Shown: piece by piece, positions 3,362-34,513 of the stretch | Layout of the letters: each line of letters opens with the position of its first letter | How positions within the stretch are numbered: the first letter of the stretch is position 1 | From: Pseudarthrobacter phenanthrenivorans Sphe3 | Lineage (GTDB): Bacteria > Actinomycetota > Actinomycetes > Actinomycetales > Micrococcaceae | DNA: 64,000 bases | Reading direction: 5' to 3' | Assembly (NCBI RefSeq): GCF_000189535.1 | Contig: NC_015145.1 | Span: forward strand, 1,798,001 to 1,862,000 | Notes under the pieces: model-generated | What the model saw: only the letters and a program-made list of their open reading frames with translations | What the model was told of the DNA's origin: nothing | The model's database searches: none | Made by a program: the position numbers and the translations under genes

Positions 3362-4930
3362 TCAGGTTGGGGTGTGCTGCAGCCGGACGACAGGTACTGG
3401 TCCTCGCAGGATCGTTCTTCCGAGGTTGCGGTATTTGCGGGCCCGCGAGGCGACCAGTTGGGAGACGGGAACTGCGGCTACTGAGGCGAGTTCGTATTCG
3501 ATGGCGTGCGCCATGCGTGAGCAGAATTCCCGGGGCTCCAGTGAGGCGTCGTTCCGTTCATCGACGATGTGGTCCACCAGCCCGTTTGCGTATAGTGCTG
3601 CTACGTTGACGCCTTGCGCCTGTGCCATGGCGGGGGCGTAGGCGGTGGTGCGGTGGACGATGGCGCTGGCGCCTTCGGGTGGCAGCGGAGAGAGCCAGCT
3701 GTGCTGGGCGGCGATGGTCCTGTCGGCTGGCAGTAGCGCCAGCGCACCTCCGCCGGCGCCTTGTCCGAGCAGGACGGAGACCGATGGTGATTGCAGGCCG
3801 ATCAGGTCGTGCAGGGAGCGGGCGATTTCGCCGGCGAGACCGCCTTCTTCTGCTTCCTGGGAGAGGGCTGCGCCGGCGGTGTCGATGACGGTGAGCAGCG
3901 GCAGCCGCAGTTCCTCGGCGAGTTTGGCACCGCGGCGTTCCTCGCGCAGGGAGCCGGGACCCATTCCCGCGGCGGCCTTCCGCAGGGGACGGGCGTGTCC
4001 GAGGACGATGCAGGACTGGGTTCCGAAGCGGGCCAGGGCCAGCAGCAGGCCTGGGTCTTTTTCGCCCTGCCCGGTGCCGTTCAGCGGGAGGGCATCTGTG
4101 GCGCCGTATCTGAGGAGCTGGCGGAGGCCGGGGCGACGGGGCTGGCGGGAGATTTTTATTGAGGTCCACGCATCCACGTCGGCGGGTCGGACGGTCAAGG
4201 TGGCCGGCGCCTGCGGCCATCCCATGGAGCCGGAAGCCCGCGGAGGCATAAGGATTTCCAGCGCCCGGCCCACCAACCCGGCGAGCTCTCCGGGCTCCAC
4301 GACGCCGTCGATGAGTCCTTTGTTGAACAGGTTCTCGGCGACCTGTACGTTGTCCGGGAAGGCTTCTCCGTGCAGCGCCTCGTAAACGCGCGGGCCCAGG
4401 AAGCCGAGCAGGGAGCCGGGTTCGGCGACGTTAATATGCCCGAGGGATCCCCAGGAGGCCATCACGCCACCGGTGGTTGGGTGTCGCAGGTAGACCAGGT
4501 AAGGCAGCCCGGCCTGGCGATGTGCCCGCACGGCCGCGGTGATTCTGACCATGGACAGGAAGGCCAGGGTTCCTTCCTGCATTCGGGTCCCGCCTGAGGC
4601 AGTGCCGGCCAGCAAGGGCAGGCCTTCGGCCGTGGCCCGTTCCACCGCAGCGACGATCCGTTCCGCCGCGGCGTGGCCGATTGATCCGGCCAGGAAGTTG
4701 AACTCGCTGACGATCAGCGCCACCCGGCGGCCGCGGATTAGTCCGGCACCGGTGAGCACGGATTCGTCGGCGCCGCTGCGCTCACGGGCCTTAGTGAGGT
4801 CGTTTGCGTAGTCGTCAGTCAACGCGGGCTGCTGAGGTTCGGCATCCCAGGAGACGAACGACCCTTCATCCACCACGGTGTCCAGCAGCTCGGCGGCGCT
4901 GAGGTGGCGGACTTTTTCCGTTGTCGGCAT
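3362..4930 (-). CDS. AccD/AccA-fused acyl-CoA carboxyltransferase
   Basis: A 522-residue carboxyl transferase that moves the carboxyl group of carboxybiotin onto an acyl-CoA. The N-terminal half is AccD/PccB-beta-like with TASGGTRMQEG (about residues 125-135) and the GGVMASWGSLGHINVAEPGS loop. The C-terminal half is AccA-like with TVIDTAGAALSQEAEEGG, LLGQGAGGGALALLP and SPLPPEGASAI. Domain order and length suit a fused beta-alpha subunit. The ATG lies one base after the stop of the CoA-transferase gene, so it is the last gene of that operon. No biotin carboxylase or biotin carrier gene is visible here, so partners must come from elsewhere. The IS110 insertion two genes up may be polar on it. 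Confidence 0.85.
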   Translation of the reverse strand: MPTTEKVRHLSAAELLDTVVDEGSFVSWDAEPQQPALTDDYANDLTKARERSGADESVLTGAGLIRGRRVALIVSEFNFLAGSIGHAAAERIVAAVERATAEGLPLLAGTASGGTRMQEGTLAFLSMVRITAAVRAHRQAGLPYLVYLRHPTTGGVMASWGSLGHINVAEPGSLLGFLGPRVYEALHGEAFPDNVQVAENLFNKGLIDGVVEPGELAGLVGRALEILMPPRASGSMGWPQAPATLTVRPADVDAWTSIKISRQPRRPGLRQLLRYGATDALPLNGTGQGEKDPGLLLALARFGTQSCIVLGHARPLRKAAAGMGPGSLREERRGAKLAEELRLPLLTVIDTAGAALSQEAEEGGLAGEIARSLHDLIGLQSPSVSVLLGQGAGGGALALLPADRTIAAQHSWLSPLPPEGASAIVHRTTAYAPAMAQAQGVNVAALYANGLVDHIVDERNDASLEPREFCSRMAHAIEYELASVAAVPVSQLVASRARKYRNLGRTILRGPVPVVRLQHTPT

Positions 4931-4931
4931 G

Positions 4932-5132
4932 CTAATGCACTCCCGCGGGGTCGGCGGGGACAAGGCCGAGCCATTCCCGGATGGGCCCGGCGTCGGCGTC
5001 CAGCAGGGGCGGGGCCGCGTGCTCGGTGATGGTCGTTTCGGCGGTGCCGCCGGGCGCGAAGAAGCGTAGCGGCGGGCCGGGCAGGCTGACCTTGCCGAGC
5101 AGCGGGTGCTCCACATTCACGACGAGGCCTTG
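4932..5132 (-). pseudogene. CaiB/BaiF CoA-transferase, 3' part cut off by IS110 insertion
   Basis: The minus strand reads GLVVNVEHPLLGKVSLPGPP, then LRFFAPGG and TITEHAAPPLLDADAGPIRE, ending at TAG 4932-4934. This is the standard C-terminal end of family III CoA-transferases. Joining 5132 to 6590 restores a continuous reading frame (EQVAS-QGLVV), which shows that this and the segment at 6590-7603 are one gene interrupted by the insertion element. The gene ends one base before the carboxyltransferase start. Confidence 0.9.
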
Positions 5133-6589
5133 GGAATCTCAATGTTTCTGTCAAGCCGCCTGAGCGGTGATGCGTGGCATTGGTTCCTGGTAGATGGTGT
5201 GGTCACGGAGCATCGCCCAGAGGACGTTGATGCGACGTCTGGCGAGGGCGATGAGGGCCTGTTTATGCGACTTTCCTTCTCCGCGCTTCCGGTCGTAATA
5301 GGTTCTTGAGGCCGCGCTGTTCTTCAAGCTGGAGAGGGCGGCGAGGTAACAGGTCCGCAGGAGCCTGCGGTTAAAGCGACGTGGTCGGTGCAGGTTCCCG
5401 CTGATTCGTCCGGAATCGCGCGGGACGGGAGCCAGCCCCGCGACGCTGGCGAGCCGGTCGACTGAGTCAAACGCGTCCAGGTTGCCGCCGATGTTCGCGA
5501 GAAAAGTAGCTGCGAGTACGGGGCCGAAGCCCGGCATGGTGAGCAAAACATCGGCGCTGTCGTGCTTCCCGAACAGGTCCGTGATCTGGGCATCGATGCC
5601 GGCGATCTCCGCATCGAGAGTGCTGATTTGCCCGGCCAGCCGGACGACCAGGGCAGAGCCTGTGGTCTGAGTTGGCAGTACGGTGTGCTGGGAGTTTGCG
5701 GCTATCAGTGCCTTCTCTGCCATCTTGGCACTATTGCGGCAGCCGCGTTTCCTCAGCCAACCGGTGAGCCGAGCTAGTCCGATCCGCCGGATGCCCTCGG
5801 GTGTCTGGTAGCCGCCCAGGAGGACCAGGGGCGCCTGTTTGGAGTAGTCGAACGCACGCTCGAGAGCCGGGAAATATTCCAGCAAGGTGGCGCGGAGCCT
5901 GTTGATCGCCCGGACACGGTCGCAGATCAGATCCGTACGGCGGGCGGTGAGGAGCCGCAGGTCAACGCTGATCTGGTCCGTGCGGCGGACTGGTTGGAGG
6001 TCCGTGCGCATCCGTGCCTGGTCAGCGATGATCCTGGCATCTTTCGCGTCGGTCTTGCCATCTCCGCGGTAGGTCTCCGCAGCGTGATGCACGATCCGTC
6101 CAGGTATATAGAGCAGTTGCTGGGCGTGCGCGGCCAACAACTCGATCAACAGGGCCGCTCCGCCGGAATTCAGATCCGTGGCCCAGCAGACTTCGCCCCC
6201 GGCCGCGATCTCCGCGATCGTGGCTATGAGTTCGAGCACTGCGTTTTCGTCGTTCTCGACCCGTTTCGAGAGCAGCACGGTCCCCGTCTGATCGATCACG
6301 ACGCAATGATGTGCTCTTTTGCCTGAGTCGATTCCTACCCAGAATGCCGGCATGTTCAGTCTCCTTCGATCAGCTCCAATTTCGGTTGGCCCTGTCGATA
6401 ACTACGCCGGCACGTCCTTACCCAACGATCAATGTCGTAATTCTCAATCAGCGGTCGAGTCATCGGCGGGCAGCGGGCGGCCATTCCCAGTGAGCCATCC
6501 AAGCGGCAGGGCGACCTAGGCCATACCCGCCACCCGAGGGTGATCGAAACACTACGACAGCTCCGAAATCACCCACAACAAAATCGTAA
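5133..6589 (-). mobile_element. IS110-family insertion sequence, about 1.46 kb
   Basis: The element carries one transposase gene (5151-6353, minus strand) with a short left end and about 236 bp of non-coding right end. The borders are deduced from the host gene: removing 5133-6589 rejoins the CaiB/BaiF frame exactly. A GG pair is present on both sides, so the border could slide by two bases and at most a 2-bp target duplication exists. I see no terminal inverted repeats, as expected for IS110 members, which use a DEDD transposase and recently described bridge RNAs from non-coding ends. The 236-bp right end is where such an RNA could lie, but I did not fold it. Confidence 0.85.
5151..6353 (-). 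CDS. IS110-family DEDD transposase
   Basis: A full-length 400-residue transposase. The N-terminal RuvC-like DEDD domain begins MPAFWVGIDSGKRAHHCVVI (first Asp at residue 9) and contains DGKTDAKDARIIADQ around residue 95-110, the family's second acidic cluster. The C-terminal Transposase_20 domain has LLTMPGFGPVLAATFLANIG followed by FDSVDRLASVAGLAPVPRDS, which holds the conserved serine region. The frame is uninterrupted, so the element may be active. Its insertion splits the CoA-transferase gene. Confidence 0.95.
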   Translation of the reverse strand: MPAFWVGIDSGKRAHHCVVIDQTGTVLLSKRVENDENAVLELIATIAEIAAGGEVCWATDLNSGGAALLIELLAAHAQQLLYIPGRIVHHAAETYRGDGKTDAKDARIIADQARMRTDLQPVRRTDQISVDLRLLTARRTDLICDRVRAINRLRATLLEYFPALERAFDYSKQAPLVLLGGYQTPEGIRRIGLARLTGWLRKRGCRNSAKMAEKALIAANSQHTVLPTQTTGSALVVRLAGQISTLDAEIAGIDAQITDLFGKHDSADVLLTMPGFGPVLAATFLANIGGNLDAFDSVDRLASVAGLAPVPRDSGRISGNLHRPRRFNRRLLRTCYLAALSSLKNSAASRTYYDRKRGEGKSHKQALIALARRRINVLWAMLRDHTIYQEPMPRITAQAA

Positions 6590-7603
6590 GGAGGCGACCT
6601 GCTCCCACGCGTACACCTCGTCCAGGGAGCGGACCTTCCCGGCCGGGATCCCGGCGTCGTTCAGCTTTTCCAGCAGCTCAGCGGCGCCGTAGCCGGCAAA
6701 TACGTGTTCGACGGCGGCGATCACCTCGGCACGGTTCCGCACCCTTTCGGCGTTGCTGGCGAAGCCGGGGGCGGCAGGGTCCAGGCCGAAGGCGGCGGCG
6801 AAGGAGGCCCAGAGCTTTTCGCTACCGACGCTGATCTGGATACTGCCGTCCTTGCAGTTGAACAGACCGTACGGGGCGATGGAGGGGTGGTGGTTGCCCT
6901 GCGCCTGCGGAACTTCACCGGCAACGGTGGTCCTGGTGCCCTGGAAGGCATGGACCCCGATCAGCGATGCCAGCAGCGATGTGCGGACCACCTTGCCGCG
7001 GCCGGTCTTGTCCCGTTCCACGAGGGCTGCGAGTACTCCGGTGGCGCCGTTCATGCCGGCGAGCAGGTCGGCGATGGGGACGCCTACGCGCTGGGGGTCG
7101 TCCGGGCCGGAACCGGTGAGGGACATCAGGCCGGCCTCGCCCTGGAGGATCTGGTCGTAGCCGCTGCGCCGGGACTCGGGTCCGTCGTGGCCGAACCCGG
7201 TGATGGAGAGGATGATCAGGCGCGGGTTGATACCGTGCATCGCCGCGGCGGAGAAGCCCAACCGGTCCATCACGCCGGGGCGGAAATTTTCAATCAGGAC
7301 GTCGGCCCGCTCCAGCAGTCCGCGCAGGACGGTCTGCCCGTCGGCGCTCTTCAAGTCCAGCGCGATGGACTCCTTGTTGCGGTTGCAGGACATGAAGTAG
7401 GTGGACTGGAGGTCGTCCTCGGGGCCGACGAAGGGTGGGCCCCAGCCGCGGGTGTCGTCCCCGGTTCCCGGGTTTTCCACCTTGATGACACGGGCGCCGA
7501 GGTCCGCGAGCATCATGCCGGCGTGCGGGCCGGCCAGGGCACGGCTCAGATCAATAACCGTATGCCCGGCAAGGGGGCCTTCGGGATGGTCTGCTATGTT
7601 CAT
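6590..7603 (-). pseudogene. CaiB/BaiF CoA-transferase, 5' part interrupted by IS110
   Basis: Family III CoA-transferases move CoA between organic acids. This 5' part starts at ATG 7601-7603 (overlapping the previous gene as ATGA) and shows the family's start DLSRALAGPHAGMMLADLGA followed by RVIKVENPGTGDDTRGWGPP, then SCNRNKESIALDLKSADG, ENFRPGVMDRLG and GYDQILQGEAGLMSLTG. It is intact to VRSLDEVYAWEQVAS, after which the frame enters the IS and stops at 6569. With the 3' piece at 4932-5132 it would give about 404 residues, normal for the family. The insertion removes the C-terminal substrate-lid region, so activity is unlikely. Confidence 0.9.
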
Positions 7604-8868
7604 GTACCGGTTCCTGTCGAATATGCGGTCTGGTGCTGACGGAGCAGCTCCCGTCCGTAGTCGTTGCCGTTTGGGGTGCGCATTAGGGTGTGGATGTGGA
7701 ACGGGGCAGGCTCCTTGTTGTTGAGAAACACTCCACAGTGGTGGTCGAGTTCCAGCACCAGCACGGGGCTCTGTAGCCGGTAGTAGAAGGGGTCCGCAGG
7801 GCCGTAGCCGCCGATCCACGAAAACCAGGTCTCGTCGTAGTGACTGGCTATCTCGCGGCGGCGCGCCGCCGCGGGGCCATCCGGAAGGTATGCAGTGAAG
7901 TCCGCGATGATGGCATCGACCAGTCGCCGTGCCTGTTCGTTCATGTCCCGTACCCTGATTCCCTCGTAGGGGATGACCCGGTTGTCCTGGAAGGCACCGG
8001 CGAGGTGGCGCTCATCTCCGGGGTGGATTCTGCCTTCCGGCATCGTCGGGTCCACCATGTGCTCGTAGATCTGGGCCTCGGCGCGCTGGGGGGCGGGAAG
8101 CGTCTCCATCAAACGGCGCGCCAGGGCGATCCTTTCAGTGAAAACGTAGGTGCCCGCGAAAGGGCCATGGTCGATGCCATTTGGTTCTGCCCCGAAGAAA
8201 ATCGGAGTGATTACCATTTGGGTCCCCACCACAAGGCAGTTCAGTGCTACGTGATGACCGAACAGCTGCCATCCCCAGGGTTCGCTGAGAGATGGTTGCC
8301 CGTAGAGAGCGATGTTATAGCTGTATTCGTTCATGAGGGCGGGCAGGCCGACCTCTTCGCCGAGGAAGCCGTTGATCCGCATGAGGGCGCGAACAAGTTC
8401 GTAGCCGCGCGGGCTCAGGCTCGCCTCCACCAAAGCGAGTACAAGCTGGCGCGTCCGTTCGTCTTGTTCCTCGAGGCGCAGGCCAGTGTCGTGTTGCATG
8501 AACTCCGGGTTGGCCCAGGTTTGCCATTCCACCGCGTCTGGTGAATAGGAGAGCTTTTCCCGCTGCTCCGGGCTTAGATAGGCGAGCATCTCGTGGCCCG
8601 CGGCCGTCATCGCAGCGACTGGTGCCTCTTCACCTGTCCTGGCCGGCTGGAGCCTGTAGAGGCCTTCCCTGAGTGACCCGTTGTTCGTCACTCCTCGAAA
8701 GGGCTGGAAGTAGAGCGGTTCCCAACCCCGGATGAGCTCACCGGTGAAGGCATCCGCCTTTGCTGCCTCCCGGTATCCGCGGGCGTCAAGGCCCTTGAGA
8801 CCTGAGATCCGGGGATCGTCCGGTGCATAAAAGTGGCGGCGGAAGTCCGCGGTCGTATCCACACTCAT
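7600..8868 (-). CDS. DUF3500 family protein
   Basis: A 422-residue soluble protein of the DUF3500 family, whose biochemical role is not established. Features seen: a Trp/Phe-rich middle (SEPWGWQLFGHHVALNCLVV), a DHGPFAGTYVFTERIALARR stretch, and a conserved C-terminus with His-rich strands LVLELDHHCGVFLNNKEPAP, FHIHTLMRTPNGNDYGRELL. The clustered His, Asp and Glu residues could form a metal site, which is inference. It is coupled by ATGA overlaps to FAH (upstream) and CoA-transferase (downstream), and a second FAH/DUF3500 pair existed at 31.3-32 kb, so the two families likely act in consecutive steps. No signal peptide was seen. Confidence 0.85.
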   Translation of the reverse strand: MSVDTTADFRRHFYAPDDPRISGLKGLDARGYREAAKADAFTGELIRGWEPLYFQPFRGVTNNGSLREGLYRLQPARTGEEAPVAAMTAAGHEMLAYLSPEQREKLSYSPDAVEWQTWANPEFMQHDTGLRLEEQDERTRQLVLALVEASLSPRGYELVRALMRINGFLGEEVGLPALMNEYSYNIALYGQPSLSEPWGWQLFGHHVALNCLVVGTQMVITPIFFGAEPNGIDHGPFAGTYVFTERIALARRLMETLPAPQRAEAQIYEHMVDPTMPEGRIHPGDERHLAGAFQDNRVIPYEGIRVRDMNEQARRLVDAIIADFTAYLPDGPAAARRREIASHYDETWFSWIGGYGPADPFYYRLQSPVLVLELDHHCGVFLNNKEPAPFHIHTLMRTPNGNDYGRELLRQHQTAYSTGTGT

Positions 8869-9737
8869 GAAGCGTTCCCTGCGGTATGGCGGGTTTCGTT
8901 TCCAACGATCGGTGTAGTCAGGACGCCGAGTTTATCGATCTCGACCTCGACGGTGTCACCGGGTTGGAGGAGCCACTGAGGGTTTCGTGCGTATCCGACG
9001 CCTTCGGGCGTACCGGTGCAGATGATGTCGCCGGGGCGGAGAGTGAACGTATGAGAAATATGGGAAAGTGTTTCTCCGAGCTCGTAGATCATGTCACGGC
9101 AGTTTCCGTCCTGCACCACGATGCCGTTGACACGGGTCTGGACCCGCAGTCCATCGCGCAGGTCGCCCACCTCGTTTGCCGTAACGAGCGGACCAAGTGG
9201 TCCGCTGGCGTCGCCATTTTTCCCAAGGATCCACTGTGAAGTCAGTTTCTGTGCCCGCCGAGAAGTCAGGTCGTTGAATACGGAGTACCCCAAAACGGCG
9301 CTTCGCGCGGTCTCGGCATCAGCATCAATAAGTGTCTGGCCCACGTATGCAGCGATTTCGCCTTCCCAGTCCAGGCCATCTTCATTGGAAGGGACGGGTG
9401 CAGGGCGTCCGCCAACGCTGAGGGACTGGGTCCAGCGCGCGAACAGCGTGGGATGGGGCGGAAGGGCCTCATTTTTATAGGTTCCCTCGGCGGCATGCGC
9501 CCGGTAATTGAGGCCGATGCAGATCACGCGGGCGTCGGGCAGGACAGGTGGCACGACTTCAACGTCCTCCATATCGAGGGGGGCCTCGTTGGGGGATGAA
9601 CCGTCTGTAAGGGCACCGTAGGGATCAGCCCAAAACTCCTGGACACTCGCCAGGACATGCAGCTTATTGGATTCCCTGTCCAGGACGGCCAGGTGGACGC
9701 CCGCGTGTGTAGGTGTTTTCACTCCGATGAGTTTCAA
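8865..9737 (-). CDS. Fumarylacetoacetate hydrolase (FAH) family protein
   Basis: FAH-family enzymes hydrolyse C-C bonds of acylpyruvates or decarboxylate/isomerise ring-cleavage products. The protein has the conserved core PDARVICIGLNYRAHAAEGT, then GLDWEGEIAAYVG, the metal-binding and oxyanion region DLTSRRAQ-KLTSQWILGKNGDA, and the C-terminal LRPGDIICTGTPEGVG plus LLQPGDTVEVEIDKLGVL. I chose the TTG at 9735-9737 (290 residues) because a GAGAAG-type RBS precedes it and the family usually begins MKLIG-like; the longer ATG frame would invade the upstream gene. The end overlaps DUF3500 (ATGA). In this operon it probably acts after the FAD monooxygenase. Confidence 0.88.
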   Translation of the reverse strand: MKLIGVKTPTHAGVHLAVLDRESNKLHVLASVQEFWADPYGALTDGSSPNEAPLDMEDVEVVPPVLPDARVICIGLNYRAHAAEGTYKNEALPPHPTLFARWTQSLSVGGRPAPVPSNEDGLDWEGEIAAYVGQTLIDADAETARSAVLGYSVFNDLTSRRAQKLTSQWILGKNGDASGPLGPLVTANEVGDLRDGLRVQTRVNGIVVQDGNCRDMIYELGETLSHISHTFTLRPGDIICTGTPEGVGYARNPQWLLQPGDTVEVEIDKLGVLTTPIVGNETRHTAGNAS

Positions 9738-9771
9738 GTTCTTCTCGTTCCGTTGTGGTTGGAAGGGTGTC

Positions 9772-11493: not shown

Positions 11494-11531
11494 GGTTTGC
11501 TCTCGTGTATGTGAAGACACTCAGAAATTGG

Positions 11532-12824: not shown

Positions 12825-12867
12825 CTTTGATTCCAATCCAGAGGGACATTGTGAACTCAACTACCTT

Positions 12868-12898: not shown

Positions 12899-12913
12899 TT
12901 TCACTGAGTGAAC
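12899..12913. promoter_or_regulatory. Putative IclR-type operator, TTTCA-N5-TGAAC
   Basis: TTTCACTGAGTGAAC contains a perfect 13-bp palindrome (TTCACT-G-AGTGAA) 40 bp before the GTG of the IclR gene. The same half sites with the same 5-bp spacer occur in three other divergent promoter regions of this window (15342, 25484, 33171), so it is a candidate autoregulatory and operon operator. Confidence 0.55.
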
Positions 12914-15341: not shown

Positions 15342-15356
15342 TTTCAATCAATGACA
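15342..15356. promoter_or_regulatory. Putative IclR-type operator, TTTCA-N5-TGACA
   Basis: TTTCAATCAATGACA lies between the divergent GH1 gene and ABC importer operon. Nine of ten half-site bases match TTTCA-N5-TGAAA. It resembles the site at 25484 closely, sharing a CAATGA core. Confidence 0.5.
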
Positions 15357-17020: not shown

Positions 17021-17031
17021 TACCCGCACCT

Positions 17032-17068
17032 GCCGGGCCGCCCCTATCACCAGGAGGGGCCGCCCGGC
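17032..17068 (+). promoter_or_regulatory. Strong intercistronic stem-loop between binding-protein and permease genes
   Basis: GCCGGGCCGCCCCT (17032-17045) pairs with AGGGGCCGCCCGGC (17055-17068), 13 of 14 positions, 9-nt loop. It lies 12 bp after the binding-protein stop. In many ABC operons such a hairpin protects the binding-protein mRNA or partly stops transcription so the receptor is made in excess. No T-run follows. Confidence 0.6.
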
Positions 17069-17093
17069 AAGGGCCTGACCGATGGAGGTCACC

Positions 17094-25421: not shown

Positions 25422-25483
25422 GGCTTAGGTCCTTGCGCCGTTGGAAGTTCGGACCGGAGTCCGTGAGCCGCAACACAATATCA

Positions 25484-25498
25484 TTCCAACCAATGAAA
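25484..25498. promoter_or_regulatory. Putative IclR-type operator, TTCCA-N5-TGAAA
   Basis: TTCCAACCAATGAAA lies between the divergent second IclR gene and second rhamnosidase gene. Nine of ten half-site positions match TTTCA-N5-TGAAA, with the same 5-bp spacer as the three other sites. Confidence 0.5.
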
Positions 25499-25570
25499 GG
25501 AGACTGGGTAGGGCTGCATGCCGGCAACGAAGCTGGAAGTCCAGCTAATCCACCTTCAGGAGCCTCCCGC

Positions 25571-28309
25571 ATGACCGCCATCAGTCCCGACGCTGCCGTC
25601 GGCGAACGCCTGCCGGCCCCTGCCGCCCCCACCAGGCTTCGTGTCGAACACCTCCGCGAGGCATTCGGCATCACCACTACCCGGCCACGCCTCAGCTGGA
25701 CCCCGCCCCGCGGAGCAACAGGGCAGGTTGCCTATCGGATCACCGCAACCAACGGCTGGGATACGGGCCGCGTGGATTCCGCGCAGCACCTCCTGGTCCC
25801 ATACTCCGGCCCGGCATTGGAAGCCCGCAGCCGGTTCGAATGGCAGGTGCGGACCTGGACCATCGACGCCGGCGGCAGCGAAAATGTAAGCTCCTGGTCT
25901 GAACCCATGCCCGTGGAGCTGGGACTCCTGGACCCCACGGACTGGACCGCGCAGTGGATCGGCCCGTCCGAACCCGAGGTTCACGCCCCGGGTGAACGCC
26001 CGGGCTATGGCTTCCACAAGACCTTCACCCTTGCGTCAGTCCCGGAAGCGGCACGCGCCTACGCTACCGCCCACGGCATCTACGAGCTGTTCCTCAACGG
26101 CGAGCGGGTGGGCGACCAACAGCTCACGCCCGGCTCCACCAGCTACAACACCACCCTGCAGGTGCAGGCCTACGACGTCACCTCCCTGCTGCGCCCCGGC
26201 ATCAACACCGTCATGGCCGTCCTCACCGACGGGTGGTACCGCGGAACCTTCGGATTCACGCGCGACGCCGACATGTACGGCACTCAGACCGCCCTCCTCG
26301 CGCAGCTGGAGATTCAGTCCGGGAACGGCAGGACGGTCATCGGCACCGATGAGTCCTGGCTGGTGACCGGGACGGAGATCGTTCGCGCCGACCTGATGGC
26401 AGGGCAGTACGTGGATTTCCGGGGCGGACGCAGCGCGGCGGCAAACGTAGGCGCCGCGCCTAAGGCGAGTGCCGCCGTCGTCCGTCACGGCAGCTATGAC
26501 ACACTGGCGGGACCGGTGGCGCCGCCCACCCGGGTCATTGAAGAGCTCGCCCCGGTGTCCATCATCCGCCTGGCCAACGGGCACCAAGTGGTGGACTTCG
26601 GCCAGAATCTCCACGGCTGGGTCCGGCTAAACCGGCTCGCGCCCGGACACCCCGTCACCCTCGTGTACGGCGAAGCGCTGGACGCCGGCGGTGACGTCAC
26701 CCAGGACCACCTGCGCCCCCTCGACTTCCGGCGGCCCGGGCAGTTCCTGCCCGCCGGGCAGGTTGACCAGGTGACGGCGTCGGGCGCCCCCGCGGAGGTG
26801 TTTGAGCCGCGGCATACCACGCACGGCTTCCAGTACGTGTCCGTTCAGGGCCTTCCCGGGGACCTGGCCGGGCATGACATCACCGCCTGCCTGGTCCACA
26901 CGGACCTGGAACCCCTGGGCACGTTCAGGTGCAGCGACGGGCGCCTGAACAGGCTCCATGAGATCGTCCGCTGGAGCTTCCGGGACAATGCATGCGAGGT
27001 GCCCACCGACTGCCCGCAGCGGGAAAAGGCCGGCTGGACCGGGGACTGGCAGTTGTTCGTCCCCACCGCTGCCTACCTCTATGACGTGACAGGTTTCTCC
27101 CGCAAATGGCTGAGGGACGTCCGCGCGGACCAGTGGGACAACGGCGTCATCGCCAACATCTCCCCATCGCCCGGCCCCGGCGCCACGTCCGCGGATTTCA
27201 TGGCGTTCGTGAACGGTTCAGCAGGCTGGGGCGATGCGATCGTCATGGTGCCGTGGGAGGTGTACCGGGCTTCCGGCGATGCGGAGATACTGGCCGAGAA
27301 CTGGGCGGCCATGAACCGTTGGCTCGGCTTTGTCCGCAATACCGCTGAATCCCGCCGGCACCCCGCCCGCGCTGCGGCAAGTCCGGTTCCCGCCGCCCAT
27401 GAGCAGTACCTCTGGGACACCGGCTTCCACTGGGGCGAATGGATGGAACCGGGCGGCCCGGAACCGGACCTGTTCGCTGCCCGGTCCGCAGACCACGGCA
27501 TCGTGGCCACCGCCTACTACCGCAACACCACAGCACTGATGGCGAGGATCGCCGACGTCCTTGGCCTCCCGGAGGAGTCCCTTGCGCTCGCCGCCCTCTC
27601 GGAGAACATCCGGCAGGCGTGGGAAACGGAGTACCTGGACTCATCAGGGCAGGTAACAGAACCCAGCCAGGCCAACTGCGTCCGCGCACTCGCATTCGAT
27701 CTCGTCAGCCCCGGGCGGCGCCCAGTCGTCACAGCCCAGCTTGTTTCGCTGGTCCGGGCCGCGGGCACGCACGTGGGAACGGGCTTCCTGGCCACGCCCC
27801 ACCTGCTCCCGGTCCTGGCGGACAACGGCCAGCTCGACCTGGCTTATGAGTTGTTGATGCAGGATTCGGAACCCTCCTGGCTCGTCATGGTGGACCGCGG
27901 CGCCACCACAATGTGGGAGCTCTGGAACGGCATCGACGCCGCTGGCGCCCCGCACCAGTCGCTCAACCACTACAGCAAGGGCGCGGTGGCCTCTTTCCTC
28001 CACCGCTACACAGCCGGACTGCGGCAGGCGCCCGGCAGCGCGGGGTATGAGCGGATCATCATCGAGCCCCGTCCGGGCGCCGGGCTCACCTCTGCCGCCA
28101 CGTCTCACCAGGGCCCGCGGGGCCTGATCCAGGTGGAGTGGAAAAAGGACGACGGCGGCCTGCAGCTTCGTGCCGGGGTCCCTGCCGGGACCACCGCGGA
28201 AGTCCGGCTGCCCGTGGGGCCGCCTGCCGTCGTCGGGCCCGGAACGCACCACTTCACCGTCCCAGCCTGGGACGGAACCCGACCCCAGCCCGTAAGGAGC
28301 ATGCAATGA
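25571..28309 (+). CDS. GH78 alpha-L-rhamnosidase (second, longer copy)
   Basis: A 912-residue family 78 enzyme. It begins with a fibronectin-like N domain ([39 protein letters not shown]), then the Bac_rhamnosid_N sandwich ([32 protein letters not shown]), the barrel with [18 protein letters not shown] (about 477-493; general acid glutamate) and [14 protein letters not shown] (about 776-789; general base). I chose ATG 25571, which follows AGGAG and fits the family; the longer open frame upstream covers the promoter. No signal peptide. It starts an operon with three alpha/beta hydrolases and ends with an ATGA overlap into the first of them. Confidence 0.93.
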
Positions 28310-29313
28310 GCATCAGCGAAACGACCGAGGCCTGCGACACCACACGGGTTGATCCTGCCCGGCCTGATCCTGCCCGGCCCGGCGGGGTAGACGTTCCCCC
28401 TTTTCCCGTCTTTGATCCGCCCGGCGTCCCCGAGGACGTATCGGACGTGTCGGCCGTGCGCCGCGAAGTCACGTACGCCAAGGCGATTGGCTTCCGGCCG
28501 CTCAAGATGGACATCTGGCTGCCGCGCCAGGCAGGCGCTTCCGTGCCGCTGGTGGTGTGGATCCACGGCGGCGCCTTCCAGCTGGGCGACCGCCGTGAAC
28601 TGCCGCCCACCTTCGCGCCGGACTCGGTGTTCCGGCTGCTCAACGAGGCCGGCATTGCCTGCGCCACTGTCGATTACCGCCATTCGCTGGAAGCACCTTT
28701 CCCGGCGCAGCTGCACGACCTGAAGGCTGCCGTCCGCTACCTGCGGGAGTTCGCAGCGGACCTCGGCGTGGATCCGGAACGCTTCGGGGCATGGGGCGAA
28801 TCGGCCGGCGGCCACCTCGCCGCACTGCTGGGCCTGGCCGGGGGCCGGGAGGACCTGCACGGCGGGCTCGGTGTGCAGGGGCACTCCAGCAGCGTCAGCG
28901 CCGTCGTCGACTTCTATGGCGTCTCCTCGCTCGTCGATATCCCGCCTATCAGCATGCCGCCGGGCCTGTTCCCGCCCGCATTGACAGCTGCGGTTCCAGC
29001 CGGGATGTCCCTGCAGCCCGAACAGATGCTGGTGGGTGGCTCCAAGGATCCCGCGCTCCTGGCTGCGGCGAGCCCGGTCAGTTACGTGACCGCCGAGGCG
29101 CCGCCCTTCCTGCTGATCCACGGGGACAGCGACGGCCTGGTGCCGCACTCGCAGACCGACCTCCTGGCAGCCGCGCTTGCAGGCGCCGGCGTTGAGCACG
29201 AGGTGGTCACGGTCAAGGGCGGGGACCACTGCTTCTTCGGCGCGGAGGACCAGCTGGATGCCATCCTTGCTGCCGCCGTCGGGTTCTTTGCTGCCAAGCT
29301 GGGCCGGCGATGA
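28306..29313 (+). CDS. Alpha/beta hydrolase (esterase, HSL/BD-FAE type)
   Basis: A 335-residue serine hydrolase. Oxyanion motif VVWIHGGAF (about 83-91), nucleophile elbow [14 protein letters not shown] (Ser near 165), acid in [12 protein letters not shown] (about 270) and His in KGGDHCFFG (about 306): a full catalytic triad. A Pro/Asp-rich N-terminus with a repeated DPARP segment precedes the fold. Start ATG 28306 overlaps the rhamnosidase stop. In context it may cleave an acyl ester or depside bond of the substrate; the substrate is not determined by sequence. Confidence 0.88.
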
Positions 29314-30323
29314 CGGCCGGGCGGCGCGAGTCTCCGGCTCCTGCCCGCGACAGTGAGGTTCCGCCCGGGGACGCGCTTGCTCCGGACGCCGGGTTTGCCC
29401 AGTACCTGGCCGCCCCCGAAGGGCCGCAAACCCTGCCGGGCCAGGCAGGCCCGGACGTTGCGATCCGCACGGTGGCCGCGGAAGGACGCCGTGGACCGGT
29501 GGCTATCCGGATTTATGGGGAGCCTTCGCAGGCTGCGGGGCCGGCGCTGGTGTGGCTGCACGGCGGCGGCTTTGTCAGCGGCAGCCTGGACATGCCCGAA
29601 TCCGATTACCTGGGCCGGGTGCTGGCGTCGTCCGGAATACCGGTGTTGTCCGTCGACTACCGGCTGGCCCGCGACGGCGTGCACTTCCCGGTACCGCACG
29701 AGGACACGCTCGCCGCCTGGTTTTGGATCCGCCGGAACGCCGCCGAACTGGGACTGGATCCCGGGCTCCTGTGCCTGGGCGGCGCCGGCGCGGGGGGAAA
29801 CCTCGCGGTGGGCGCTGCGCTGTACCTGACCGATGCCGGAAAGCCGCTCCCGGCCAAGCTCCTGCTTGCCTACCCCTTCCTGCACGCAGAATTGCCACCC
29901 CCTGCAGGCGGGCTGGACGAGGAGGTGATGGCCACACTGCCCAGGTACCTGCGCTTCACCCTCGAGGACTGCGTGCGCCAGGCGGAAAACTACGTGGGCG
30001 GACCGGTCAGCATGGCGTCCTCGTATGCGATGCCAGGTTACGCCGACCCGTCCGGGCTGCCGCCCACGGCCATGGTGGCGTGTGAATACGACGACGCCCG
30101 CGGCTCTTCGGAGCTCTTCGCCGACAACCTTCGGCAGGCAGGCGTGCCTGTGTCCTTCTTCCTGGCCCGTGGCGCCGTCCACGGCCATCTCAATCACGCC
30201 GCTGGCAGCCCGGAAGCGCAGCCAGTACTGGACTTCCTGGCCACGGAGCTGGCGGCGGCGAAGGCGCTGTTTCATTCAGCGAAACCGGCCACGCGGGGCG
30301 GGCTTCCCGTACGGGAAGGTTGA
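29310..30323 (+). CDS. Alpha/beta hydrolase-fold protein lacking the nucleophile serine
   Basis: A 337-residue member of the hormone-sensitive lipase-like family: [15 protein letters not shown] oxyanion motif (about 81-95), [18 protein letters not shown] and a C-terminal half with [20 protein letters not shown] and the His in AVHGHLNHA. At the elbow, where relatives have GDSAGG, the sequence reads [12 protein letters not shown], so the catalytic Ser is Gly and the preceding Asp is Ala. Asp and His of the triad remain. The frame is otherwise intact and coupled by ATGA to the first esterase. It is probably inactive as an esterase, or has another role (binding, or subunit of its neighbour). A sequencing error would have to change more than one codon. 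Confidence 0.85.
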
Positions 30324-30393
30324 CTGGTGACGCGGTCCACACAGGTGGTCCGGCGCATGAACGAAACGGCGCGGTACAAACATGGAGTCAACG

Positions 30394-31260
30394 ATGACGG
30401 CAGGGCGGGTTATAAAAGGCATCGAGTTTGCCCGCCCCGGGGGTTCCTTCCCGCTGCTGCTGGACCTCTACATCCCCGCCGCCCCGCAGTCCGGGGCGTT
30501 GCCAGCGGTGGTCCATTTCCACGGAGGCGGCTGGCGGGTGGGAGGCCGATCCTCCCTGGGCCCGCAGATGGATTCGCTGGGCGTGAGCCCGATTGAGCGG
30601 CTCGTGGACGCTGGATTCGTGGTGGCCTCTGCCGAGTACCGGCTGAGCTCCGTGGCGCACTTTCCGGCCCAGCTGCTGGATGCCAAAGCCGCCATCCGTT
30701 GGCTCCGCGGGCATGCCGCGGAATACGCCGTGGACCCGGACCGGATCTACGCCTGGGGTGACTCCGCAGGCGGACACCTGGCCAGCCTGGTGGGCTTGAC
30801 CGCCGGGTCCGCCGCATACGCCGGCGACCGCGCGGACGTGAGTGACGCCGTCGCCGCCGTCGCCGCCTGGTACCCGCCCACGGACCTCCTCACTATGGGA
30901 GCACAACGGCTCCCGAATGCCGTTGCCAGCGCCGACGATCCCGGGTCCCGCGAGGCGCTGCTCCTCGGCGCCCAGCCGGCCCAGGCTCCGGATAAGGCTG
31001 CAGCAGCTAGCCCGATCACCTATGCCGGCAACCCCGCCCCGCCCTTCTTTTTGGCCCACGGCACGGCCGACCGCTTCGTCCCGCCCGCCCAATCCATAAC
31101 GCTGGCCGCGGCGCTGGAAGCCGCCGGCACCGCCGTCGAACTTCTCCTCATTGAAGGCGCCGACCACATGTGGCAGCTGCCGGGGCAGGACCCGACCGCA
31201 GCCGCCAAGGCCGCCGCCGCAACCATCGACTTTTTCCGCCGCCAGGGACACAAACCCTGA
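30394..31260 (+). CDS. Alpha/beta hydrolase (esterase, BD-FAE/CocE-like small esterase type)
   Basis: A 288-residue serine hydrolase with HFHGGGWRVGG (about 41-51), EYRLSSVAHFPAQLLDAKAA, nucleophile elbow AWGDSAGGHLASL (Ser near 123), acid FLAHGTADRFVPP (about 222) and His EGADHMWQLPG (about 255): an intact triad. I prefer the ATG at 30394 because GGAG lies 6 bp before it; an in-frame ATG at 30382 has no RBS. Related to feruloyl-esterase-like and isoprenylcysteine-methylesterase-like proteins. It could hydrolyse aromatic esters; the substrate is unknown. Confidence 0.87.
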   Translation: MTAGRVIKGIEFARPGGSFPLLLDLYIPAAPQSGALPAVVHFHGGGWRVGGRSSLGPQMDSLGVSPIERLVDAGFVVASAEYRLSSVAHFPAQLLDAKAAIRWLRGHAAEYAVDPDRIYAWGDSAGGHLASLVGLTAGSAAYAGDRADVSDAVAAVAAWYPPTDLLTMGAQRLPNAVASADDPGSREALLLGAQPAQAPDKAAAASPITYAGNPAPPFFLAHGTADRFVPPAQSITLAAALEAAGTAVELLLIEGADHMWQLPGQDPTAAAKAAAATIDFFRRQGHKP

Positions 31261-31274: not shown

Positions 31275-31960
31275 ATGCAGTTTGTTGGCATCACCCACCG
31301 CGGCGAATCCTGGGCCGCGGCCCTCGTCGATGTGCAGTTCTTCCACTCGCTCCCGTCACGGAATTCTGGACGGACCCCCTGGGCTGACAGGACAAGGCCC
31401 TGACGCTCACGGCCGACGCCGGCCCGCCCCTTGAGCGTGGCAGCGCCACCCAAGTGCCGCTAGTCCCCGCCTCGGCGCGCGTGATCTGCGTGGGCCTGAA
31501 CTACAAGGCCCACGCTGCCGAGGGCAGCTATAGGGACCAGGACCTGCCGCCGTACCCTACGCTGTTCGGACGCTGGACTGCGTCACTTTCCGTGGGCAAC
31601 GTGCCCGTGCCCGTTCCCGGCGGGGAAGACGGCCTGGACTGGGAAGGGGAGGTGGCCGCGTACATCGGCCGGCGCGTGGAATCAGCGGACGAGGCCGAAG
31701 CCGCAGAGGCCGTTTTTGGCTACTCCACCTTCAATGACATCACCGCCCGCCGCGCACAGAAGCTCACCAGCCAGTGGACGCTGGTGGTGCTGGAGCTGGA
31801 CCACCACACCGGAGTTTTCCTCAGCAACGACGAACCCCCGCCGGTCCACATGCATGGTGTGGTCCGCACCCCCTCCGGCAACGACTACGGCCGCGATTGC
31901 TCCAGAACTGCCGTTTTCAACGCCCGGAACGGCATCTGCCCAGCAGCCGATGGTCCCTAA
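31275..31960 (+). pseudogene. Chimeric relic: FAH 5' part fused in frame to DUF3500 3' part
   Basis: The sequence starts like a FAH-family protein (MQFVGITHRGESWAAALVD), changes frame near 31340 (another frame reads PVTEFWTDPLG then TGA at 31385-31387), and resumes as FAH with ARVICVGLNYKAHAAEGSYR through GLDWEGEVAAYIG to RRAQKLTSQWTL. At about 31782 it continues without break as the C-terminus of DUF3500 (VVLELDHHTGVFLSNDEPPP, VRTPSGNDYGRD), then loses homology before the TAA at 31958-31960. Each part is closely similar to the intact FAH (8865-9737) and DUF3500 (7600-8868). A deletion of about 1.5 kb joining two neighbouring genes explains it. Almost certainly non-functional. Confidence 0.88.
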
Positions 31961-32006: not shown

Positions 32007-32018
32007 GTCCTGGGATCG

Positions 32019-33089
32019 CTAGGAGATTTCCAGCGCGATCCGGCGCTGTGGCGGCGGCCCCACCACGGTGAGGTCCATCTCGGCCTGGGCGCGGCCGAAG
32101 CCTTCCATGTCCATGTAGGGCTGGCCTCCCTCGGTGTACATGTAGTCCTCGGTGGGCTTGTTGAAGTACTCGAAGAAGCCATTGAAGACCGACGGTGTGA
32201 GGAAGCCCAGCATCTGGGTGTTGTGCGAGTCCAGGGCGAAGGAGTGGATGGTGCCGGCTGGGGCGTGGACGAAGTCGCCCTTAGTCAGCAGCATCTCCCG
32301 GCCGTTCGCGTAGAGCCACATCCGGCCCTCGGTGACGAGGAAGTTCTCGGTGTGCTGTTCGTGGAAGTGCAGCGGGATGTAGGGCGTTTTGGCGCCTTTG
32401 GTGTGTACGGCGAAGTAGTTGGAGCCGGTGTTGGCGGGCCGGGACAGGTAGGTGAACATGGTCTGGTAGCTAACCATGCGCTCGCCCTCGTGAGCACTGA
32501 GGAAGTAGGGGCTCTGCGTGGGCGGCAGGCCGGCGTCGTGCTTGAACACCGGTTCCACCCGCTCAACCTCCGGGAAGGTGATCCCGAATTCTGCGCCCAC
32601 TGCGGCCTGTTCGTGGAGGCTGGCCGTGTGGCCGGCGCGGACAGGCGGAACGTGGGAGTCGATGGGCGTGCCGACCCGCTCGTAGTAAGCCTCCACGCCG
32701 CCGGGTGTCATCCAGTTGAGGAAGCGCGTGTAATGGCTCGCCATTCGGTAGGCATGGGGCGTGTTGGGCGGGATGACCACCGAGTCGCCGGGGGTGAGGA
32801 TGCGGCTTTCGCCAGGAAGCCAGACGTGGAGGATGCCGTCGAAAACGTAGAGGGTTTTGTGCTCTATTTCGTGGCTGACGAACGGTGAATCGGCGCCCAT
32901 GCCGCCGGAAATGTACGCGGCGCTGAAGATGCCGCCGGTGTCCGCGGCCCGGGCGATGACCGTCACCAGCTGGCCGTTGATCTCGTAGCGGGCACCTTCG
33001 CCTGACGCCATGTAGTAGGGGACAGCTTCGCCGGGCAGGGTGTTGGCCACCGGCAGCTGCTGGTTCATTTCCTCCACGCTGAGGGACAT
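32019..33089 (-). CDS. Bicupin quercetin 2,3-dioxygenase-like enzyme
   Basis: A 356-residue two-cupin protein matching flavonol 2,4-dioxygenases (quercetinases), which open the flavonol C ring to a depside and release CO. First cupin: FVSHEIEHKTLYVFDGILHV with PGDSVVIPPNTPHAYR; its metal motif is less canonical. Second cupin: YIPLHFHEQHTENFLVTEGR (about 236-255) with KGDFVHAPAGTIHSF, carrying the H-x-H, E, H ligand set. Internal GEGARYEINGQLVTVIARA is also typical. ATG 33089 has AAGGA upstream; longer frames upstream are spurious. Convergent with the rhamnosidase operon and next to a type-B esterase remnant. Substrate could be another flavonol or phenol, but the setting supports quercetin-type chemistry. 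Confidence 0.8.
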   Translation of the reverse strand: MSLSVEEMNQQLPVANTLPGEAVPYYMASGEGARYEINGQLVTVIARAADTGGIFSAAYISGGMGADSPFVSHEIEHKTLYVFDGILHVWLPGESRILTPGDSVVIPPNTPHAYRMASHYTRFLNWMTPGGVEAYYERVGTPIDSHVPPVRAGHTASLHEQAAVGAEFGITFPEVERVEPVFKHDAGLPPTQSPYFLSAHEGERMVSYQTMFTYLSRPANTGSNYFAVHTKGAKTPYIPLHFHEQHTENFLVTEGRMWLYANGREMLLTKGDFVHAPAGTIHSFALDSHNTQMLGFLTPSVFNGFFEYFNKPTEDYMYTEGGQPYMDMEGFGRAQAEMDLTVVGPPPQRRIALEIS

Positions 33090-33170
33090 GGTTCCTTCTT
33101 TCGACTCGTCCGGCAGGGCCGGAATGTGACCTCCATCATTGCCTGCGCTTTCCTTTGACAAGAGACCAGA

Positions 33171-33185
33171 TTTCAATGGGTGAAA
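33171..33185. promoter_or_regulatory. Putative IclR-type operator, TTTCA-N5-TGAAA
   Basis: TTTCAATGGGTGAAA is a perfect 5+5 palindrome between the divergent quercetinase and carboxylesterase genes. It matches the half sites and spacing of the sites at 12899, 15342 and 25484 and is the best member of the set. Confidence 0.6.
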
Positions 33186-33258
33186 GCCAAGTGTGCGGTT
33201 CATGGTCGGGCTGCGAAGCTGGCAGTTGGACCTACACCCCACCAGGAGCCTTGCCCCC

Positions 33259-34513
33259 ATGAGCCTTTCCCGCACTGTGACCATCGCCGAGGGACGGGTC
33301 CGCGGCACTGCGACCGTTGTTGAACGGCGCGGCGTCAGCCGGTTCCTGGGGATTCCCTATGCCGGTTCGCCGGCTGGGTCCGCCCGCTTCCGCCCGCCGG
33401 TTCCTGCTTCCGGCTGGGCCGGGGTGCGCGACTGTACCGGGCCTGGCCCTGCAGCGCCGCAGAACCCTGAGGTTCCCGCTCCTCCCGGCCGGAAGCCGCG
33501 GACGTGGAGCGAGGACGGGTGCCTGAACCTGAATGTGTGGACGCCTGATGCGTGCGGTTCGGGGCTTCCGGTGATGGTGTGGATTCACGGCGGCGCCTAT
33601 GTTTCGGGTGCGGCGGGCAATCATGCAGAGCGGGACGGCCGAGAGGTTCCGGAGTGCGGCGGATTCTGCCCGGCTCAGCCGGGAGTTCCTGTCACTGTGT
33701 GAGGTTGGGGACGCGCGGGAGTTGCTGGTGCTTCCGGTGGAGCGGCTGCTCGAGGCCCAGGAGAAGCTGGTGCAGCAATTTGGCGCGGAGACGTATGCCG
33801 TGCCGCTGCCGTTCCAGCCTGCGGTCGGGACGCCGTCGCTTCCTTTGCCTCCGCTGGAGGCGGTGCGGGCAGGCATGAACTCCGGCGTGGACCTGCTGGT
33901 GGGGACGAACCTGAACGAGGGATCGTTCGCCGTCGAGATGCGGCCGAAGGACCCGTTGGATCCGCCGTACGCCGGGCGGGCTGCGGCGGTTTTAAGGGAT
34001 TTTGGTGCGCCCGGCCGTTTGGAGGAATACGCGCAGGCTGTTGCTCTTGTCCTGGGGGCCGAGGCTTCCGGGAAGGAGTTGCTGGAGGCAGTTGTTTCCG
34101 ATGCGGTGTACCGGCAGCCCAGCAACCGGCTGCTTGACGCCCGGCATGGCTCGACGGGGAGGACCTTTTCCTACCTGTTCACCTGGCGGAGTCCCGCGAT
34201 GGGCGGCAAGCTGGGCGCCTGCCACGCGCTGGACATCCCGTTCGTTTTCCGGCAGCTTGGCTCGCCCGAGGCGGAGTTTCTGACGCGGGGGAGGGCGCCG
34301 CAGGGCTTGGGAGATGCCATGAGCTCGGCGTGGGCCGCGTTCGCCCGGGCCGGTCTGCCCGCCGCTCCCGGCCTGCCGCCCTGGCCGGATTACCGGTACG
34401 GACGCCAGGCGATGATCCTGGACGAGGTTCTCCGGGTGGAGGAGGACCCGCGCTCGGAACTGCGTGAGTTCTGGGCGGATGTGCTTGCAACGTCGGGAAG
34501 CGCTGCCGTGTAG
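33259..34513 (+). pseudogene. Type-B carboxylesterase with internal deletion of the active site
   Basis: The 5' part reads VTIAEGRVRGTATVVERRGV, SRFLGIPYAGSPAG, EDGCLNLNVWTPDA and MVWIHGGAYVSGAAG, the normal start of a type-B carboxylesterase. At about 33620 the sequence jumps, in a new frame, to RAIMQSGTAERF, which in relatives lies roughly 100 residues later, just after the nucleophile elbow. The old frame stops at 33702; the new frame runs through VDLLVGTNLNEGSFAVEM and GACHALDIPFVFRQLG to the TAG at 34511-34513. The deleted part contains the GESAGG serine, so the gene is dead. It was probably the divergent partner of the quercetinase gene, a fitting place for a depside esterase. Confidence 0.88.

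Follow-up and report, generated by a model that had tools for sequence, protein, structure and literature searches.

Quercetinases that leave 2,4,6-trihydroxybenzoate have long been known: the reaction yields a depside, the hydrolysis of which gives protocatechuate and 2,4,6-trihydroxybenzoate. Within the open-access literature searched, the aerobic bacterial genes that consume the latter half apparently are undescribed. In a 64,000-nucleotide stretch of the Pseudarthrobacter phenanthrenivorans Sphe3 genome (contig NC_015145.1, positions 1,798,001 to 1,862,000; hereafter the window, in which all positions are given), we observed an island of catabolic genes that combines a bicupin related to quercetinases (Qdo) with a hydrolase of the FAH family, an FAD hydroxylase and a protein of the DUF3500 family, and that may encode such a pathway.

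Bacterial oxidative flavonoid catabolism comprises A-ring and C-ring routes, and quercetinases have been named for the C-ring route, the covered parts of the same paper giving no lower-pathway genes for it (PMC11069340). In fungi, gallate is converted to 1,2,3,5-tetrahydroxybenzene, the proposed substrate of AN10530, a DUF3500 protein that would open it to 5-hydroxydienelactone (PMC12388069, in the parts covered); a 2026 paper, again in the portion covered, calls the pathway seemingly fungal-only. A search of the open-access PMC literature, with subscription papers outside its scope, found no bacterial DUF3500 pathway, be it for tetrahydroxybenzene, aerobic phloroglucinol or rutin clusters. 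In Aspergillus, the 1,2,3,5-tetrahydroxybenzene pathway is said to be a central one (Martins et al. reportedly described it in 2024), the fungal cluster reportedly includes an FAH-like gene and a monooxygenase, and a short protein without known domains is said to act on 5-hydroxydienelactone. The same make-up, an FAH-like gene and a monooxygenase together with DUF3500, is present in the window (8865-11520). In our view, the island is an IclR-controlled regulon for the catabolism of flavonols, probably in the form of glycosides, with a proposed route of seven steps; we put the probability of this reading at roughly 0.6.

Gene content, linkage and predicted operator

Gene content, family membership, conserved linkage and a shared predicted operator are observed. 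Families of the window genes were assigned by hmmscan with Pfam and NCBIfam models, and all those listed in the earlier note on this DNA were recovered: two GH78, a GH1, an ABC importer, a bicupin, three alpha/beta hydrolases, a carboxylesterase relic, a transporter, an FAD hydroxylase, FAH, DUF3500, a CoA-transferase and a carboxyltransferase. The bicupin and the genes of the putative lower pathway are the following.

32019..33308, minus strand: Qdo, bicupin, a relative of the YxaG quercetinase; the conserved start, at codon 74, reads MSLSVEEM
31275..31906, plus strand: relic of the canonical FAH, FAD hydroxylase and DUF3500 genes, adjoining the bicupin; compared with locus L062
3362..5116, minus strand: ACC_CT, fused carboxyltransferase beta and alpha without biotin carboxylase (PF01039 and PF03255)
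5151..6353, minus strand: IS110-family transposase, between ACC_CT and CoAT3
6569..7819, minus strand: CoAT3, family III CoA-transferase (PF02515)
7600..8868, minus strand: intact DUF3500 protein (PF12006, 355.5 bits against a cut-off of 27.2)
8865..9845, minus strand: FAH-family hydrolase, motifs HAAE at 117, DWEGE at 159 and ND at 191
9772..11520, minus strand: FADhyd, class A FAD hydroxylase of the PRK06126 type (NF004780, 594.8 bits, passing the cut-off of 445)
11532..12860, minus strand: MFS transporter of the aromatic acid:H+ symporter (AAHS) type (TIGR00895, 259.9 bits, below the cut-off of 418.55)

The tie between the bicupin and DUF3500 holds across the genus. Among 198 Arthrobacter and Pseudarthrobacter genomes, sampled from the larger genus, a DUF3500 match is present in 70 and a bicupin match (E <= 1e-20) in 68; both occur in 66 genomes, DUF3500 alone in 4, the bicupin alone in 2 and neither in 126. 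The DUF3500 list used for these counts includes the relic of the window, which is thus counted as linked through it, and omits 13 rows consisting of distant DUF3500 copies and second fragments; some counted genomes (e.g. G011, G148) have fragments only. In 65 of the 68 bicupin genomes, no more than 5 kb separates the bicupin from DUF3500, and in all 65 the two genes are convergent, with a median gap of 159 bp; one of the three other genomes has both genes at contig ends. The Fisher tests on co-occurrence, in the genus as well as in the relatives' loci described below, take no account of shared ancestry. As a control, we took 40 arbitrarily placed 20-kb stretches from 20 genomes of the same genus: none of these 40 had FAH at >=50% identity, FAD hydroxylase, carboxyltransferase or MFS at >=45%, CoA-transferase or IclR at >=40%, or esterase, bicupin, DUF3500 or GH78, and at any identity one had FAH and one FAD hydroxylase.

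Genome contigs also were scanned with the DUF3500 of the window, and the best 80 of the 109 confirmed stretches, each with up to 10 kb of flank on either side, were compared; this sample is skewed to near relatives because the query was the window's own DUF3500, some loci are clipped by contig ends, and counts refer to the best match per gene. The shared order is esterase, FAH, FAD hydroxylase and DUF3500, with the bicupin convergent to the latter, and the five-gene core (FAD hydroxylase at >=45%, bicupin at >=35%) is found in 40 loci. The set recurs in Micrococcaceae, where the earlier note had proposed to look for it, and, in other orders, in Brevibacterium (bicupin, esterase, FAD hydroxylase, MFS and FAH, with DUF3500 divergent) and in Microbacterium (L123: FAH, FAD hydroxylase, DUF3500, CoA-transferase and carboxyltransferase, with GH78, esterase and bicupin further along). 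In Arthrobacter sp. AQ5-06 (L113), importer, esterases, core, CoA-transferase, carboxyltransferase, GH78 and GH1 all lie in one locus.

The members of the set are not equally tied to each other. FAH (>=50%) is present in 78 of the 80 loci, the exceptions being L089, on a short contig, and L161, and in 71 of the 72 loci of at least 15 kb, while FAD hydroxylase at >=45% is found in 58 of the 80. Among loci of at least 15 kb, those with any bicupin hit, a category that includes weak partial matches of 29-32% identity, have the esterase in 45/45 and FAD hydroxylase at >=45% in 45/45, versus 7/27 for each in loci without a bicupin hit; with a bicupin limit of 35%, the esterase is found in 40 of 41 loci among all 80. 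Because bicupin, esterase and hydroxylase co-vary, while FAH and DUF3500 are spread more widely, the latter two look like a central core, and the former three like one feeder of it, and such a split fits what the scheme proposed below requires. CoA-transferase and carboxyltransferase are both present in 13 of the 80 loci, singly in 2 and 2, and absent from 63. FAH and DUF3500 are divergent in 29 loci; in both bicupin-less divergent loci that were checked, an FCD/GntR regulator occupies the gap between them (L122:9243-9974, L074:10472-11509). In Rhodococcus RL1, DUF3500, MFS, hydroxylase and FCD proteins have near-consecutive locus tags (PMC8416521, in the part covered).

The window itself departs from this arrangement. 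Comparison with L062 (Arthrobacter sp. 9AX) indicates that the canonical FAH/DUF3500 pair of the window is a deletion relic: the first half of the FAH gene is fused to the tail of the DUF3500 gene, about 3.17 kb is gone, with 6 bases of overlap where the ends join, and what is left of FAH carries an inner stop as well as a frame change. Judging by the alignments, the intact operon (6569-12860) is a paralogue of the canonical lower-pathway genes, because its DUF3500 clusters with rows without a bicupin and its FADhyd is only 56-62% identical to the canonical copies. The lower route that the earlier note had drawn through FAD hydroxylase, FAH and DUF3500 thus stands as far as the presence of the genes is concerned, with the qualification that the operon in the window is a paralogue and the copy beside the bicupin a relic, which had been overlooked (~31.27-31.91 kb).

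CoAT3 and ACC_CT are mostly 86-92% identical to their counterparts in loci of a third type, represented by L074 and L077. In particular, CoAT3 is 87-92% identical to the copies in L074, L077 and L078, and these alignments begin at residue 69-73, so that the real start probably is some 70 codons downstream of the annotated one; its best NCBIfam model, succinate-glutarate CoA-transferase, is matched at 310 bits, below the cut-off of 750. ACC_CT scores under all NCBIfam equivalog cut-offs and is 86-88% identical to the copies in L074 and L077, which adjoin CoA-transferase and FAH; the carboxyltransferase pieces in L078 are 73-81% identical to it. The CoA-transferase and carboxyltransferase genes adjoin in L074 and L077 and are separated in the window by a gap (5117-6568) that holds the IS110 gene.

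The two paralogous IclR regulators of the earlier note are borne out, and both stand beside predicted operators.

12953..13741, plus strand: IclR1, regulator of the IclR family, in divergent orientation to the lower operon
24573..25421, minus strand: IclR2, second IclR regulator, between GH78a and GH78b; 60% identical to IclR1
12899..12913, no strand: predicted operator TTTCACTGAGTGAAC, in the gap that separates IclR1 from the MFS-FADhyd-FAH-DUF3500-CoAT3 operon
15342..15356, no strand: predicted operator TTTCAATCAATGACA, in the gap that separates GH1 from the importer genes
25484..25498, no strand: predicted operator TTCCAACCAATGAAA, between IclR2 and GH78b
30270..30284, no strand: predicted operator TTTCATTCAGCGAAA, before BDFAE2 and within the 3' end of ABH3; same place in 33/33 relatives
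33171..33185, no strand: predicted operator TTTCAATGGGTGAAA, before Qdo

A palindrome, TTYCA-N5-TGRAA, likewise overlooked before, lies upstream of five island promoters, that of the intact lower operon included, and both halves of the window have this predicted operator in common. It was spotted initially in four promoters of the window, and a test on the five promoters is circular for those four because the motif was discovered in them; the letters Y and R were fixed after scoring of the relatives' bicupin promoters. The independent tests are this scoring, done with letters fixed from the window only, and the esterase promoters of the relatives. In the former, 33 bicupin promoters reached a mean best score of 9.2/10 versus 6.1 for shuffled sequences. 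Exact sites are found in 33/33 esterase and 30/33 bicupin promoters of the relatives. The 80 loci hold 76 exact sites, of which 63 fall in promoters of the esterase or the bicupin, versus a total of 2 sites in 796 kb of control DNA. With at most one mismatch, the window has 9 sites against 2.3 expected, a number that 0 of 100 shuffles reach; five are those of the island promoters and four lie outside them, at 22189, 31915, 43470 and 56841. The exact site is absent from the Brevibacterium, Modestobacter and other non-Micrococcaceae loci among the 80, bar one in L161 that is away from these genes. IclR2 is 90-95% identical to the regulator that adjoins GH78b in L087, L090, L095, L102 and L106. 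Linkage and the shared predicted operator together support the interpretation of the region as a catabolic island.

Qdo, DUF3500 and a proposed route

The best matches of Qdo in the PDB are to the quercetin 2,3-dioxygenase of B. subtilis, YxaG (E 1.8e-60); residues 88-391 align to residues 7-312 of 2h0v, so both cupin domains are covered. We take the metal ligands of YxaG to be H62, H64, E69 and H103 in the N-terminal domain and H234, H236, E241 and H275 in the C-terminal one. In an alignment of 53 rows (the window and 12 + 40 from the relatives' loci; shorter matches were left out), 49 of them distinct, the equivalents of the C-terminal 3-His-1-Glu ligands are kept in 49, 49, 49 and 48 distinct rows, respectively, the single exception being a row that ends before the last His. 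The N-terminal site is lost, although the equivalents of H64 and H103 are kept in 42/49 distinct rows each. Since the N-terminal site is lost and the C-terminal ligands are kept, Qdo is, by its predicted ligands, a homologue of bicupin quercetinases that may function like them and is not a YxaG-type two-site enzyme; the earlier claim of a quercetinase-like bicupin is borne out by the homology over both domains, with the correction that the N-terminal ligands of YxaG are lacking.

The two genomes with a bicupin and no DUF3500 match carry a second, unlinked bicupin type of 46-50% identity (G114:C1:2201722-2202771, G146:C2:163021-164043). Modestobacter, Blastococcus and their kin (e.g. L131, L140, L145) possess clusters of FAH, DUF3500, FAD hydroxylase, esterase, IclR, GH1 and ABC importer genes, in which the cupin match is short and 29-32% identical; perhaps these clusters use a different flavonol dioxygenase.

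At least 3,833 DUF3500 homologues were found among the 7,999 candidates scored. The fold is that of 9x86 (ApmL / Amc20, of amipurimycin biosynthesis), and no other solved DUF3500 homologue was found; re-ranking the best 1000 Foldseek matches with VIA-align (995 aligned) revealed no second family. A candidate metal site was read from conservation alone. In the open-access literature searched, we found nothing on the function of Amc20 / ApmL, and the amipurimycin paper, in the parts covered, names neither (PMC10698177). In a tree of 88 DUF3500 rows (82 distinct; matches under 300 aa left out), the bicupin-linked copies fall into two clades that are supported and well separated, the first comprising Micrococcaceae and Microbacterium and the second Brevibacterium. 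The proposal of DUF3500 as a catabolic enzyme stands as a candidacy and is not wholly new, a fungal DUF3500 protein having been proposed already for 1,2,3,5-tetrahydroxybenzene (PMC12388069, in part).

The upper part of the route would draw on the following genes.

13960..15246, minus strand: GH1 enzyme of the beta-glucosidase type, with NEP at 159 and ENG at 330
15464..21114, plus strand: ABC importer of the oligopeptide type (family 5 binding protein, permease, permease-ATPase fusion, ATPase)
22184..24469, plus strand: GH78 alpha-L-rhamnosidase a
25196..28309, plus strand: GH78 alpha-L-rhamnosidase b; beyond the operator, the first in-frame ATG or GTG is at 25571
28138..29313, plus strand: BDFAE1, feruloyl-esterase-like alpha/beta hydrolase
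29310..30323, plus strand: ABH3, alpha/beta hydrolase
30382..31260, plus strand: BDFAE2, alpha/beta hydrolase

The NEP and ENG motifs of the GH1 protein presumably are the catalytic motifs of GH1 beta-glucosidases. All reactions of the route are inferred. The importer would take up the glycoside, from which GH78 and GH1 would trim the sugars; Qdo would cleave the C ring of the flavonol to a depside and CO; and an alpha/beta hydrolase, most likely BDFAE2, the best candidate for the depside esterase of the island, would cut the depside to a hydroxybenzoate and 2,4,6-trihydroxybenzoate. In the case of quercetin, the hydroxybenzoate would be protocatechuate, to be consumed by PcaGH: genes for the alpha and beta subunits of protocatechuate 3,4-dioxygenase, pcaG and pcaH, are present elsewhere in the genome (NCBIfam, 186.5 bits versus a cut-off of 126.25 and 346.9 versus 296.4, respectively). 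FADhyd would then swap the carboxylate of 2,4,6-trihydroxybenzoate for a hydroxyl by oxidative decarboxylation or, alternatively, hydroxylate phloroglucinol, in either case producing 1,2,3,5-tetrahydroxybenzene. DUF3500 would open this ring between adjacent hydroxyls to 2,4-dihydroxymuconate, the enol of 2,4-dioxoadipate, and FAH, in which the HxxE and metal motifs are retained, would split this acylpyruvate to pyruvate and malonate. As the final step, CoAT3, as a malonate/dicarboxylate CoA-transferase, would make malonyl-CoA, from which ACC_CT would produce acetyl-CoA by decarboxylation or transcarboxylation; malonate as the product of FAH would give this pair a clear use.

The wider generalization, to which we give even odds, is an actinobacterial 1,2,3,5-tetrahydroxybenzene central pathway that ends in pyruvate and malonate (acetyl-CoA). 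In it, DUF3500 would be a ring-opening oxygenase of a structurally new class, DUF3500 and FAH would form a core served by lineage-specific hydroxylases, and the flavonol A ring would enter once a bicupin, by means of its C-terminal metal site alone, had cleaved the C ring.

Alternatives and points against the route

Several observations weigh against the proposed route. The intact DUF3500 of the window clusters in the tree with five copies that have no bicupin nearby. Within 10 kb, GH78 is found in 21/40 core loci, and GH1 and the ABC binding protein in 4/40 each, so that rutin, which the earlier note had named as the likely substrate, is a guess. CoA-transferase and carboxyltransferase each occur near DUF3500 in 15/80 loci at the limits used, and because they are missing in most loci, the malonate end is the weakest part of the scheme. 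The exact operator is not enriched genome-wide, with 11 places versus 8 for a reversed control pattern, so the motif alone is not specific and the evidence lies in its position. The bicupin lacks the N-terminal metal site, and the sole solved homologue of DUF3500, 9x86, bears the title "dehydratase". Some flavoprotein oxygenases open rings themselves, and there is a minor, although appreciable, chance that the substrate route is as proposed but the ring is opened by the FAD enzyme or another enzyme, with DUF3500 acting as a hydratase, dehydratase or lactone hydrolase on the opened product. However, of the 27 loci of >=15 kb with no bicupin hit, 20 retain DUF3500 with FAH and lack such an FAD hydroxylase, so the hydroxylase appears to be the exchangeable part; moreover, by our mass balance, the fungal product 5-hydroxydienelactone requires the addition of O2 to tetrahydroxybenzene.

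The absence of H62 and E69 equivalents from all distinct rows (0/49) of the bicupin subfamily, together with the 19/40 core clusters that have no GH78 within 10 kb, would suit a different phloroglucinol-type or phenolic substrate, with a bicupin that is not a flavonol dioxygenase. We consider this unlikely, given that the YxaG quercetinase is by far the best solved relative of the bicupin, that the C-terminal 3-His-1-Glu site is retained in 49/49 distinct rows (one clipped before the last His) and that the bicupin-tied esterase and FAD hydroxylase suit a depside route. Much less probable still is a role of FAH in L-rhamnose breakdown by the diketo-hydrolase route, in which case it would merely sit with GH78 and have no aromatic function. 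Its best NCBIfam model is 2,4-didehydro-3-deoxy-L-rhamnonate hydrolase (NF053535), and, among the nearest solved relatives, 8gsr, an L-2,4-diketo-3-deoxyrhamnonate hydrolase, ranks second, FAHD1 acylpyruvase being further off; the score, however, is 149 bits against a cut-off of 500, and FAH (>=50%) is found beside DUF3500 in 56/58 loci without GH78 as well as in 22/22 with it. We set the rhamnose role aside because FAH tracks DUF3500 and not GH78. The IS110 element and the several relics indicate that the region has been rearranged, and one could suspect a chance neighbourhood of unrelated catabolic genes, but this notion is refuted by the conserved linkage, with the co-occurrence, the locus counts, the operator sites of the relatives and the 40-stretch control all contrary to it, and it retains next to no probability. 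The flavonol regulon with the seven-step route is the reading that we retain.

Adjacent genes and relation to known systems

Four further features of the island and its flanks are listed here.

33259..34513, plus strand: two-piece relic of a carboxylesterase; at the matching place, L063 has an open frame of 524 aa
21053..22111, plus strand: metallo-beta-lactamase-fold protein; match in 1/80 relative loci
about 2473..3209, plus strand: HMG-CoA-lyase-like relic in two frames with an inner TGA; a neighbour, beyond the 3362..34513 span
57051-63755: 2,234-aa open frame in DNA of ~74% G+C; sole Pfam match DUF6603, 45.8 bits

The carboxylesterase relic adjoins the bicupin and is one more decayed esterase of the island. 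The metallo-beta-lactamase-fold protein was considered as a lactonase and dropped, its match being confined to that one locus. The HMG-CoA lyase relic noted earlier is real; it lies outside the span assigned to the island and has no support as a member of the set, the relatives not having been searched for HMG-CoA lyase. A class I/II aminotransferase and an RraA-like protein (35479-37392), with a LysR regulator (38232-39248), are found beside the bicupin cluster in 5/80 loci too. A LamB/YcsF protein and both allophanate-hydrolase-like carboxyltransferase domains (43409-46273) look to us like an ordinary 5-oxoprolinase set.

The island amounts to a complete, ordered and testable gene list for the proposed use of the flavonol A ring. 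If the proposed route is true, the tetrahydroxybenzene pathway extends from fungi to bacteria; DUF3500, a family without a settled function, gains one, as a ring-opening enzyme whose fold has a single solved relative; and common soil and plant-associated genera possess an IclR operator for flavonol sensing.

Each of the known systems resembles the island in part. YxaG (2h0v, 1y3t) is homologous to Qdo across both cupin domains and has the C-terminal 3-His-1-Glu site in common with it, but possesses an N-terminal metal site that is gone throughout the Qdo subfamily. Similarly, 9x86 shares with the DUF3500 protein of the window the fold and the conserved GHH, E and HIH positions, but is only 23-26% identical to it, shorter, biosynthetic and titled a dehydratase. 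The fungal tetrahydroxybenzene pathway, with a proposed DUF3500 ring opening fed by a monooxygenase that oxidatively decarboxylates trihydroxybenzoate (PMC12388069, PMC13094099, in the parts covered), is likened to the island via the DUF3500 family and not by direct alignment; unlike it, the island is bacterial, with a proposed bicupin and esterase feed, IclR control and, in some loci, a CoA-transferase/carboxyltransferase pair. The fde genes of Herbaspirillum and the ifc genes of Variovorax, as far as the covered parts of the source describe them, resemble the proposed route of the island in that bacteria degrade flavonoids oxidatively with the help of an FAD monooxygenase; in those systems, however, the A ring of the intact flavonoid is hydroxylated and cleaved by a glyoxalase-type dioxygenase, whereas the island would open the C ring first (PMC11069340).

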